Part shown: positions 4,523 to 10,906 of the stretch, piece after piece
How the letters are laid out: each line of letters opens with the position of its first letter
How positions within the stretch are numbered: the first letter of the stretch is position 1
From: Acidimicrobiia bacterium
GTDB lineage: Bacteria > Actinomycetota > Acidimicrobiia > Spongiisociales > UBA5794
NCBI GenBank assembly: GCA_013001485.1
Contig: JABDMN010000266.1
Location: 1-12,111, forward strand
Direction of reading: 5' to 3'
DNA: 12,111 bases
Translations under genes and position numbers: made by a program
The notes under the pieces: generated by a model
The model's database searches: none
The model's input: the letters and a program-made list of their open reading frames with translations, nothing else
What the model was told of the DNA's origin: nothing

Positions 4523-5692
4523 ATGGAGCGCGTGCTGGTCATCCATGGCCCCAATCTGAATCTTCTGGGATCGCGGGACCCCGGCATCTACGGGAATCGA
4601 ACCCTCGCCGAGCTGGACGAGGAGATAGCCGGCTGGGGTCGTGACCTCGGAGTCGACGTCGAGACCTTCCAGTCGAACCACGAAGGCGAGATCCTCGATC
4701 GGATCCAGCGTGCCGACCACGACGGAGTCATCATCAACGCCGGTGCGCTCACGCACTACTCGTTCAGCCTGCACGACGCCATCGAGGCGATCAGCCCACC
4801 CGTCGTCGAGGTGCACATCTCGAACGTTCGTGCCCGCGAGCACTGGCGGCGCCGATCGGTCATCGCCGCGGCCTGCGTGGCCTCCATCTATGGGCGCGGC
4901 GCCCGCAGCTACCACGATGCTTTGCGTCACCTCGTACATCGGTCCCGGTGGCCAGCCGAAACTCGGCGCTACGGAGACGACGCCGATGACCAGATCGGCG
5001 ACCTTCGCCTCCCCGACGGCGAGGGCCCATTCCCCGTGGCCGTCATCATCCACGGAGGGTTCTGGGCCGATGTTTGGCAGCGAGACCTCATGGACGCCGT
5101 CGCCATCGATATCTCTCGCCGGGGTTGGGCTACCTGGAACATCGAGTACCGGCGAGTGGGCTCCGGTGGAGGCTGGCCCGGCACCCAGGCCGATGTGGCC
5201 GCGGCCATCGATGCGATCCCGACACTGTCCGACCGCCTCGATCCGCAACGGGTCATCGTGGTCGGGCATTCAGCCGGCGGGCAACTGGCTTTGTGGTCGG
5301 CCGGCAGGCACCCGGACTCCTCGGCGGTGGTACCGATGGGAGTCGTCGCTCTGGCGCCAATCACCGATCTCACCCAGGCTCATCGACTCGGCCTCGACGA
5401 CGGGGCCGTGGAGCGCTACCTGCGCAGGTCACCCGACAAGGACGGTGCCCGCTACCGCGAGTCGTCTCCTGTGTCGCTGCTACCGCTTGGGGTCCCCCAG
5501 GTGATCGTGCATGGCGATCTCGACGATCGGGTACCGGTGCAAATGAGCCGGGCATATGCGGGCGAGGCCGCCGACGCCGGCGACGAGGTTCGCTATCACG
5601 AGTTCGAAGGTTCAGGTCACTTCGAGGTCATCGACCCCGGCCACATCGTGTGGTCAAAGATCGCCGACGAGATCGACCAGTTCCTCAGCTGA
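4523..5692 (+). CDS. aroQ: Fusion of type II 3-dehydroquinate dehydratase with an alpha/beta hydrolase
   Basis: A 389-residue, two-enzyme protein. Residues 1-141 are a whole type II dehydroquinase (third shikimate step, 3-dehydroquinate to 3-dehydroshikimate). Asn11, Arg18, catalytic Tyr23, Asn72, His78, Glu96, His98, Ser100, Arg105 and Arg109 are all in place (motifs [29 protein letters not shown]). Residues from about 146 on are a complete alpha/beta hydrolase resembling BD-FAE esterases and kynurenine-formamidase-like enzymes: oxyanion motif HGGFW (177-181), nucleophile Ser250 in GHSAGGQ, Asp334 in HGDLDDRVP, and His366 in GSGHFE. Almost no linker separates the two; [14 protein letters not shown], where such hydrolases normally begin, follows directly. 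Both domains look active. The hydrolase substrate is unknown, possibly an ester or amide. It ends in an 8-bp overlap with the convergent aminotransferase. Dehydroquinase is normally a separate dodecamer, so the fusion is notable. Confidence 0.93.
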
Positions 5693-8019: not shown

Positions 8020-8532
8020 ATGCGGATCGACGAGTTTCTGCCCGAATCCGATGCCACACACTCCTACGAGATCCGGATCGAAGCTCCACCGACTGCAGTT
8101 CGCCGTGCCTTGCTCGAGGTCAATCTCGCCGACGATCTCGTGGTTCGCACCCTGCTGCGGTTGCGCGGTCTGCCGCGACGGGCGACCACGTGGGCGGGAC
8201 TGGAGCAACTCGGTTTCATCCGGCTTGCCAACGAGCCCGACGAGTTGCTGCTTGGCATCATCGGACGGTTCTGGACGCTGACAGGCCACCTGGTCGCAGT
8301 CGACGCTGACGGCTTCCGGGAACACAAAGACCCGGGGTACGCCAAAGCGGCCTGGAACTTCACGATCCTTCCGGACGGGAACGGGACCCGCCTTGGCACT
8401 GAGACAAGGGTGCTGTGCTCCGATGAAGCCTCACGAGTCAGGTTCAGGCGCTACTGGAAGGTGGTCGGACCGTTCAGCGGGTTGATCAGGAAGCGGATCC
8501 TGCGCCAGGCGACAAAGGGACTCGACCGCTGA
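8020..8532 (+). CDS. SRPBCC-like (START/polyketide cyclase fold) protein, function unknown
   Basis: A 170-residue soluble protein. The pattern fits an SRPBCC-type helix-grip fold: an early strand HSYEIRIEAP then a helix (PTAVRRALLEV), a central run of strands including FIRLANEPDELLLGIIG, the strand TRLGTETRVLC, and a final amphipathic helix RFRRYWKVVGPFSGLIRKRIL. The ETRV...R.RF..YW..V.PFSG..R end is seen in small uncharacterised actinobacterial and proteobacterial members of this superfamily. These proteins bind hydrophobic ligands in a pocket; no ligand can be inferred. It starts 4 bases after the serC stop, so is probably co-translated with it, but a serine-related role is unsupported. Its last 47 bases overlap the end of the convergent membrane-protein gene. 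Fold assignment is by eye and moderate in confidence. Confidence 0.78.
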   Translation: MRIDEFLPESDATHSYEIRIEAPPTAVRRALLEVNLADDLVVRTLLRLRGLPRRATTWAGLEQLGFIRLANEPDELLLGIIGRFWTLTGHLVAVDADGFREHKDPGYAKAAWNFTILPDGNGTRLGTETRVLCSDEASRVRFRRYWKVVGPFSGLIRKRILRQATKGLDR

Positions 8533-10248: not shown

Positions 10249-10758
10249 ATGAAGCGGCTGATCATCATGCGACATGGAAAGTCCGACTGGAAGTCGGCGA
10301 CAGCTACCGACCATGGCCGCCCCTTGGCCAAGCGCGGTCGCGTCGCCGCCAAGACCATGGGTCTGGTGCTGACCAGAGCCAATGAGCAGCCCGACCTCGT
10401 CATCACCTCCACTGCCACAAGAGCTCGTGACACCGCATCACTGGCTGCGAAGTCCGGCGAATGGGATTGCGAGGTCGAGGAAACTGAACGTCTGTACCTG
10501 TCTGGCCCCGACGAGATGATCAAGATCGCTTCGGCTGCCGGCGACAACGTCAACCGGCTCCTTCTCGTTGGCCACCAGCCCACGTGTGCCGATCTGATCT
10601 ACCGCCTCACGGGCGGAATCGTGCAGGTGAAGACAGCCACCGTTGTCGGCCTCGATGTGGGCATCGACGCTTGGGAAGAGCTTCCCGGGGCAGAGGCGAC
10701 GATCGGGTGGGTGCTCCAGCCCCGGATGTTTACCGACTACGACATCGCCGTCGAGTGA
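10249..10758 (+). CDS. sixA: SixA-type histidine phosphatase (phosphoglycerate mutase superfamily)
   Basis: A 169-residue single-domain histidine phosphatase. The catalytic RHG is at 8-10 with His9 as the phosphorylated residue; Arg58 in STATRARDTA and His109 in LLLVGHQPT complete the pocket. Small size and the C-terminal GWVLQPRMF element fit the SixA subgroup. In E. coli SixA dephosphorylates phosphohistidine on ArcB/NPr; the partner here is unknown, and other small members act on small phosphoesters. Start at 10249 because the family begins MKRLxxxRHG and a -10 box lies just upstream; the longer frame to 9862 is a shadow of the GNAT gene. The last four codons and stop (IAVE, TGA) form the first unit of an 18-bp tandem repeat that continues past the gene, so the C-terminus lies in unstable sequence. 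Confidence 0.93.
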   Translation: MKRLIIMRHGKSDWKSATATDHGRPLAKRGRVAAKTMGLVLTRANEQPDLVITSTATRARDTASLAAKSGEWDCEVEETERLYLSGPDEMIKIASAAGDNVNRLLLVGHQPTCADLIYRLTGGIVQVKTATVVGLDVGIDAWEELPGAEATIGWVLQPRMFTDYDIAVE

Positions 10759-10852
10759 CGGTTCGCCGTTGAATAACGGTTCGCCGTCGAGTGACGGTTC
10801 GCCGTCGAATGACGGTTCGCCGTCGAATGACGGTTCGCCGTCGAGTAACCGG
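10746..10852 (+). repeat. 18-bp tandem repeat, six units, forming a row of TTCG-loop hairpins
   Basis: Units begin at 10746, 10764, 10782, 10800, 10818 and 10836, with consensus CGCCGTCGAGTGACGGTT; the last is degenerate at its end. Each junction reads GACGG-TTCG-CCGTC, a 5-bp stem (4 bp, or with a wobble pair, in the first two) closing a four-base loop, giving five hairpins in a row at about 10757-10770, 10776-10787, 10793-10806, 10811-10824 and 10829-10842. Unit 1 is the end of sixA. In that frame every unit carries a stop (TGA or TAA) at the same place, and all differences between units 1-5 are transitions. A 10-bp palindrome, CGGATATCCG, follows at 10850-10859. There are no spacers, so this is not CRISPR. 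Possible roles are 3'-end protection, transcription slowing or none. Confidence 0.9.
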
Positions 10853-10867
10853 ATATCCGAAGTAACT

Positions 10868-10898
10868 AGTCACTACTTGACCGCGGCCAGTAGTCACT
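10868..10898 (+). promoter_or_regulatory. Imperfect dyad over the DivIVA-like promoter, candidate operator
   Basis: AGTCACTACT (10868-10877) and AGTAGTCACT (10889-10898) are inverted copies with one C/C mismatch, separated by 11 bases. The octamer TAGTCACT also occurs as a direct repeat at 10867 and 10891, 24 bases apart. The arms flank and enter the -35 and spacer, where a bound regulator would block RNA polymerase. No regulator can be named, and a chance origin is possible. Confidence 0.4.
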
Positions 10899-10906
10899 GA
10901 TACACT
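10877..10906 (+). promoter_or_regulatory. Sigma70-type promoter for the DivIVA-like gene
   Basis: TTGACC (10877-10882) and TACACT (10901-10906) are separated by 18 bases, the best -35/-10 pair in the window. Transcription would begin near 10913, leaving a leader of roughly 40 bases that carries AGGAG nine bases before the ATG. This differs from the leaderless arrangement of its neighbours. It is the only promoter here with both hexamers in standard register. Confidence 0.7.

Follow-up and report, generated by a model that had tools for sequence, protein, structure and literature searches.

A dehydroquinase-hydrolase fusion in Acidimicrobiia with reciprocal loss of active-site residues among its relatives

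In the 12,111-nucleotide stretch of Acidimicrobiia DNA analysed here (the window), one gene joins a type II 3-dehydroquinate dehydratase (AroQ) in frame to an alpha/beta hydrolase. Both halves come from known families; the surprising part is the reciprocal loss, in which some close fused relatives have lost the Ser nucleophile of the hydrolase with AroQ intact, and members of other classes have lost the active site of AroQ with the hydrolase triad kept. On balance, we lean towards reading this protein as a rigid two-enzyme unit that is held together by structure and is not a metabolic pair.

According to this reading, an old in-frame fusion, probably a single event, would have given rise to a rigid two-domain protein. 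Its N-terminal half, the sole dehydroquinase found, would work in the shikimate pathway, and its C-terminal half would act as a carboxylesterase-type hydrolase on a separate small ester; the two would be tied by a dedicated interface comprising Arg125 of AroQ and Arg162, Asp188 and Asp191 of the hydrolase. Where a second AroQ is present, the fused AroQ would lose its active site and persist as a folded support on which the hydrolase rests. Certain lineages, few in number, would have a hydrolase that lost its Ser nucleophile yet is still selected as a piece of the AroQ protein, and in a few others it would have been dropped. Scaffolding or stability may be the reason for keeping the fusion.

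The fused gene and its two domains

The features of the gene are as follows.

4523..5692, + strand: fused gene, type II 3-dehydroquinate dehydratase plus alpha/beta hydrolase, 389 aa; frame shared with the congener G199
4523..4942, + strand: AroQ half, residues 1-140, from Pfam/NCBIfam, PDB dehydroquinases (E 2.3e-37) and conservation
4895..4897, + strand: Arg125 of the GRG motif, proposed domain interface, from the contrast between fused and free proteins
4943..4960, + strand: junction, residues 141-146, from the final AroQ helix to the first hydrolase strand (AlphaFold2 model)
4958..5689, + strand: alpha/beta hydrolase half, residues 146-389, HSL/BD-FAE-like carboxylesterase fold
5006..5008, + strand: Arg162, hydrolase side, commoner in fused than in free proteins (frequency contrast)
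5084..5086, + strand: Asp188, hydrolase side, commoner in fused than in free proteins (frequency contrast)
5270..5272, + strand: catalytic Ser250 (nucleophile, GHSAGG), with Gly, Glu or Asp at this site in part of the relatives
5522..5524, + strand: catalytic Asp334, present in 119/119 fusions
5618..5620, + strand: catalytic His366, present in 118/119 fusions

The initial annotation had read one uninterrupted frame of 389 codons at 4523-5692, and this was borne out: the plus-strand frame has zero internal stops. Residues 4-137 match DHquinase_II (Pfam, E 4.8e-52), and the protein scores above the cut-offs of both PF01220 (175.8 bits against 23.3) and TIGR01088 aroQ (170.1 bits against 169.85). 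N11, R18, Y23, N72, H78, H98 and R109, which we take to be the lid Arg and Tyr plus the active-site Asn, His and Arg, are all found. Judged by family score and residues, this half is an intact type II dehydroquinase, an enzyme that normally forms a dodecamer; a dodecamer of the fusion might, as the initial annotation proposed, carry twelve hydrolase domains. Residues 163-376 match BD-FAE/abhydrolase families in Pfam and NCBIfam; the score against PF20434 (BD-FAE) is 65.2 bits, above the cut-off of 26.8, with the triad and the HGG oxyanion motif present, and that against the NCBIfam hormone-sensitive-lipase equivalog NF058665 is 43.9 bits, below the cut-off of 320. The triad (Ser250, Asp334, His366) lies at the positions first assigned to it, as does HGGFW, and the earlier reading of the dehydroquinase active-site residues holds too. 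In the AlphaFold2 model of the single chain (pLDDT 95.6, pTM 0.93), helix 128-142 closes AroQ and strand 146-149 opens the hydrolase, which agrees with the earlier statement that there is almost no linker at about residues 141-146.

The hydrolase half also carries an HGGFW motif, presumably typical of the kynurenine formamidase family, and the solved kynurenine formamidase 4e15 appears at Foldseek rank 45 for the model of P0122, a relative with a decayed AroQ half (see below). A formamidase-type hydrolase (HGGxW) acting on N-formylkynurenine is nevertheless extremely improbable: tryptophan dioxygenase, which is needed for N-formylkynurenine, occurs in 36 of the 138 genomes of the order, mostly in family f3, and a PF03301 search found none in the window genome (G000, a draft that is 82.85% complete) or in G199 (79%). 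Short tryptophan-dioxygenase-like ORFs of approximately 240-300 aa, which match the ends of PF03301 and not its middle, were seen in G117, G202, G225, G166 and other genomes.

Distribution of the fusion and loss of the hydrolase nucleophile

Matches were found in 132 of the 138 genomes of the order, and sorting them by hand, with several fused genes cut at contig ends and second matches listed for only part of the genomes, gave 101 with the fusion, 25 with AroQ alone and 6 with fragments or remote hydrolases; the domain pair, which the initial annotation had proposed searching for in related genomes, is present in most sampled genomes of the order. The fusion occurs in families f1, f3, f4, f5, f6 and f7. 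Since f2, f8, genus g8 and two g6 genomes have an AroQ with no hydrolase attached, the union is dispensable. Elsewhere in the class, the AroQ matches listed from the sampled genomes are free. The other genome of the genus, G199, has the gene open in the same frame, 84% identical and without an internal indel, although the C-terminal ends differ; this, together with the fusion in 101 genomes of the order, excludes an assembly or frameshift artefact, and the original reading of a true fusion holds. Between the two congeners, dN/dS is 0.11 for AroQ and 0.067 for the hydrolase (NG86; dS near saturation), and both halves are under purifying selection.

As far as the drafts tell, the fused protein is the housekeeping dehydroquinase, because no second AroQ (G066 excepted) and no type I enzyme accompanies it. 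In a PF01220 search, G066 was the only fused genome of the order with a second full-length AroQ; the AroQ of G212 itself lies in pieces on two contigs, and an additional AroQ fragment of 41 residues was seen in G058. Type I dehydroquinase was found in 0 of the 138 genomes of the order, with control genomes positive as expected, and the fused AroQ is the sole dehydroquinase found in the window genome (82.85% complete). Of the 69 fused loci compared within the order, 67 have all seven AroQ active-site residues, the two exceptions being G232, in which one site differs in an unsure alignment, and the interrupted gene of G066.

When the query and its 120 listed homologues were compared, 119 of the 121 proteins were full-length fusions. 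The remaining two, P0007 and P0027, hold the hydrolase half only and were left out. P0007 (232 aa) is a predicted protein encoded in the window that starts inside the fused gene; P0027 (257 aa), from an NCBI MAG record and listed for the gene of G199 (contig C37, L125:5977-7383), likewise has an inside start. The source names of the close relatives P0027 and P0053 give Acidimicrobiia. Since such predicted starts skip the AroQ half, genomes annotated in this manner would appear to be without a dehydroquinase.

At position 250 the 119 full-length fusions split into 83 with Ser, 30 with Gly, 5 with Glu and 1 with Asp; the nucleophile is thus replaced in 36 of 119 close fusions in which AroQ is intact, a share that belongs to this neighbourhood, as these are the fusions nearest to the window protein. 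On a tree built without the nucleophile columns, four changes are needed to account for the loss of Ser, and starred branches force at least three. Within the order, Ser is absent from 7 of 69 fused loci, in genera g88 and g89. For the Ser-less hydrolase half of g89, dN/dS is 0.24 in one of seven pairs and 0.08-0.16 in the other six, compared with 0.07-0.30 in 11 pairs of the Ser type (NG86 throughout); given this continuing constraint, the Ser-less g89 domains appear to keep a role, with their chemistry changed or absent. Ser is kept in all 34 free hydrolases and in all 44 hydrolases with a decayed AroQ half that were compared.

These members might use a changed nucleophile, be it the replacement residue (Asp or Glu) or, in GHGSGG, the Ser next to it. 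Asp nucleophiles occur in other alpha/beta hydrolases, and the retention of His366 and Asp334 and the low dN/dS are consistent with such a change; however, Gly, aligned at the nucleophile position, is the commonest replacement (30/36), and we consider this explanation quite unlikely. Under the reading of a structural unit, the Ser-less half would be kept for its place in the protein.

Decayed dehydroquinase halves and second copies of AroQ

A search of the phylum revealed ORFs in other classes with an AroQ-like N-terminal half that lacks the active site, and a homologue search from one such ORF returned many proteins of approximately 370 aa, with Euzebyales, Gaiellales and Conexibacter stalactiti among the source names. 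From the 120 listed, 49 decayed proteins were picked by hand, their N-terminal half being about 100 aa or more and without the GPN motif. None of the seven active-site residues is present in 46 of them and one is present in 3; not one of the 49 retains the lid residue R18 or Y23. An hhalign comparison of 40 decayed halves with 80 free AroQs gave Prob 98.6 and E 1.1e-15, compared with Prob 0.10 for a reversed control and 0.11 for a hydrolase control, and the 14 halves nearest P0122 gave Prob 96 and E 3.3e-9 by themselves. In sequence terms, the decayed halves are thus AroQ homologues by profile and are not dehydroquinases by residues.

The decayed half with the highest AroQ score, that of G501, lies above the Pfam AroQ cut-off (55.7 against 23.3 bits), and all 39 of its PDB matches (best 1.4e-13) are to dehydroquinases or to I3-A6, which has a match to AroQ of its own. 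With Pfam, DHquinase_II is recognised at E up to 0.1 in just 6 of the 49 proteins. A profile built from six decayed halves, with G501 left out, matches ribose-binding proteins at 5e-5 and, more strongly, a dehydroquinase at 5.9e-8. Selection on the decayed halves is relaxed, with a dN/dS of 0.36-0.53 in seven pairs (NG86), still below 1. The model of the decayed P0122 (pLDDT 96.4, pTM 0.94) has helices and strands that, compared by eye, follow the AroQ order of the window model save for the missing lid region. In searches with both whole models, the matches listed (Foldseek, best 50; VIA) are all hydrolases, and these searches neither back nor exclude an AroQ fold for the decayed half. In P0225, G417 and G480 the decayed half is shortened, an outcome that plain erosion would give likewise; P0157, which has no HGG motif, was left unscored.

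Decay goes together with the presence of another AroQ. In the class to which genome G329 belongs, 11 genomes have a decayed fused half and 10 of these also hold a separate intact AroQ; ten of the 11 were recognised by the AroQ profile (G417 weakly, E 0.0027) and G495 by its GRG motif. The exception is G497, which is 53% complete and has a decayed half with no AroQ found. G488 and G489, of the same class, have an intact fused AroQ, and no other AroQ was found in either. In the order, the sole fused genome with a second AroQ is G066, whose fused AroQ half is interrupted by an in-frame TAA. In total, a second AroQ accompanies 0/102 intact halves (100 of the order and two of the other class) and 11/12 decayed or interrupted ones (Fisher 2e-14, with genomes treated as units; they are not independent, and few events are possible, namely one class plus G066). 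G427, which is 92% complete and has a hydrolase with an unrecognisable N-terminal half and no AroQ found, fits this pattern poorly. Of the two AroQ loci of G066 (L181, L182), the second AroQ is of a different lineage and groups with that of G156.

The initial annotation had also speculated that the hydrolase might feed AroQ by acting on a quinate or shikimate ester. A pathway fusion, in which cleavage of an ester of quinate, shikimate or dehydroquinate by the hydrolase gives a product for AroQ or its pathway, would suit a sole AroQ that is so tightly fused, and chlorogenic acid esterases are among the distant PDB sequence matches (E 6.6e-4). Many other esterases, however, match equally well or better. 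The idea is poorly supported because the halves lose active-site residues independently: the Ser nucleophile was lost at least three times while AroQ was kept, and the active site of AroQ was lost while the triad was kept. Moreover, some members of the order, in f2, f8, g8 and part of g6, keep AroQ alone within a shared gene neighbourhood. We therefore regard a pathway fusion as very unlikely.

A bolder proposal, which we put forward tentatively, is that the central metabolic enzyme and the esterase might have become obligate structural partners, each persisting as a folded pseudo-domain that bears the interface after its chemistry was lost; two reciprocal kinds of pseudoenzyme, a dead dehydroquinase beside a live hydrolase and a live dehydroquinase beside an altered hydrolase, would then descend from one fusion.

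Fusion-linked residues, origin and relation to known families

Arg125 lies in a GRG motif immediately before the final AroQ helix. All 67 intact fused halves have Arg here, as do 48 of the 49 decayed ones, whereas among the free AroQs it is found in 3/18 of the order, 0/2 of the class and 2/80 from elsewhere (the last being an outside sample from a contig search, among the matches listed, that includes L085). The three of the order are those of G105 and G221, both likely to have lost the hydrolase, and G054 (f2); the two from outside are L063 and L085, whose AroQ equals that of G221. L085 (QQUL01000161.1) is titled Armatimonadetes bacterium, and with an AroQ identical to that of G221 on the tree it is probably a mislabelled MAG. 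His136 behaves similarly (47/67 intact fused, 36/49 decayed, 2/18 free of the order, 1/80 outside). L158 (motif not found) and L182 (interrupted) were kept out of the AroQ residue table and tree. On the hydrolase side, the frequency of Arg162 is 0.98 in fusions with intact AroQ (n=84), 0.82 in those with decayed AroQ (n=44) and 0.26 in free relatives (n=34); the corresponding values for Asp188 are 0.99, 0.95 and 0.44, and D191 is likewise much commoner in fused than in free relatives. The Arg125 contrast suggests a domain interface, and because fused and free proteins differ on both sides, we infer that Arg125 contacts the hydrolase.

Alternatively, the fusion may be a neutral passenger that arose by accident and persists through inertia, its halves having no tie in structure or function. 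In favour of this, some lineages drop the hydrolase half or change its nucleophile, and selection on decayed AroQ halves is relaxed. A hydrolase frame of the same kind also follows SmpB within one ORF of G480, in line with accidental joining. This explanation nonetheless seems rather unlikely to us, as six families of the order, plus two genomes from another class, have kept the fusion, Arg125 is near-invariant in fused halves, whether intact or decayed, and rare in free AroQs, and the Ser-less hydrolase halves are still constrained.

In this ORF of G480 (L263:4581-5705), SmpB, the tmRNA-binding protein (Pfam E 3.4e-54), comes before the initial portion of the hydrolase, the reading of which stops short of its end; the ORF may be a real fusion or an error.

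The free AroQs of G105 and G221 nest within a starred clade of fused ones, and the hydrolase half was accordingly most likely lost in these two genomes. The fusion itself probably has a single origin, and the direction of change is probably the one outlined above; deep nodes are poorly resolved in both trees, so that a single fusion is not proven, and a few free hydrolases fall among fused ones. An origin from adjacent genes was considered and rejected: the near hydrolases that are free, in four genomes of the class (G110, G114, G027 and G051), lie on another contig or more than 2 Mb from AroQ.

Of the neighbouring ORFs in the window, the ABC transporter has direct BLAST partners in 39 other loci (at most 66 compared), the lipoyl-ligase-like ORF in 33, the aminotransferase in 28 and SerC in 17. 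Fused and free AroQ share neighbours in part of the order, and since these stand beside both alike, they give no hint at the hydrolase substrate. Also in the window are a 170-aa ORF right after SerC (8020-8532, + strand) with no match in Pfam or NCBIfam, and short GSPSSD/GSPSND-like repeats inside an 85-aa ORF (10643-10900).

A full-text literature search, with most subscription journals and preprints outside its coverage, found no description of the fusion or of dehydroquinase-derived pseudo-domains among the papers listed. The relatives form a natural series that runs from two intact halves, through loss of the active site in one or the other, to a dropped hydrolase, which makes it possible to test pathway against structural reasons for fused enzymes staying joined. 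The series suggests a route from a housekeeping enzyme to a pseudo-domain once a second copy exists, and it brings to light a group of domains derived from dehydroquinase, most of which go unrecognised by Pfam.

Like known AroQ proteins (PF01220/TIGR01088), the window protein has the whole domain with all seven active-site residues and is the sole dehydroquinase found; unlike them, it adds a C-terminal hydrolase and has Arg125, which is rare in free AroQ, and other classes hold decayed fused versions that Pfam mostly misses. From the BD-FAE/HSL-like carboxylesterases (PF20434; 6xyc, 6tkx, 6nkf) it differs in its identity of approximately 20%, in being fused to AroQ and in that some members are without the nucleophile. 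The solved sequence closest to the window hydrolase is a stand-alone relative, the 'carboxylesterase' of PDB 9x6a (E 1.8e-36), for which a full-text search with the code 9X6A found no paper. The stand-alone relatives are free proteins in which R162, D188 and D191 are much rarer, but they resemble the window hydrolase in N206, E208 and R211, which are common to 32-33 of the 34 free relatives compared.
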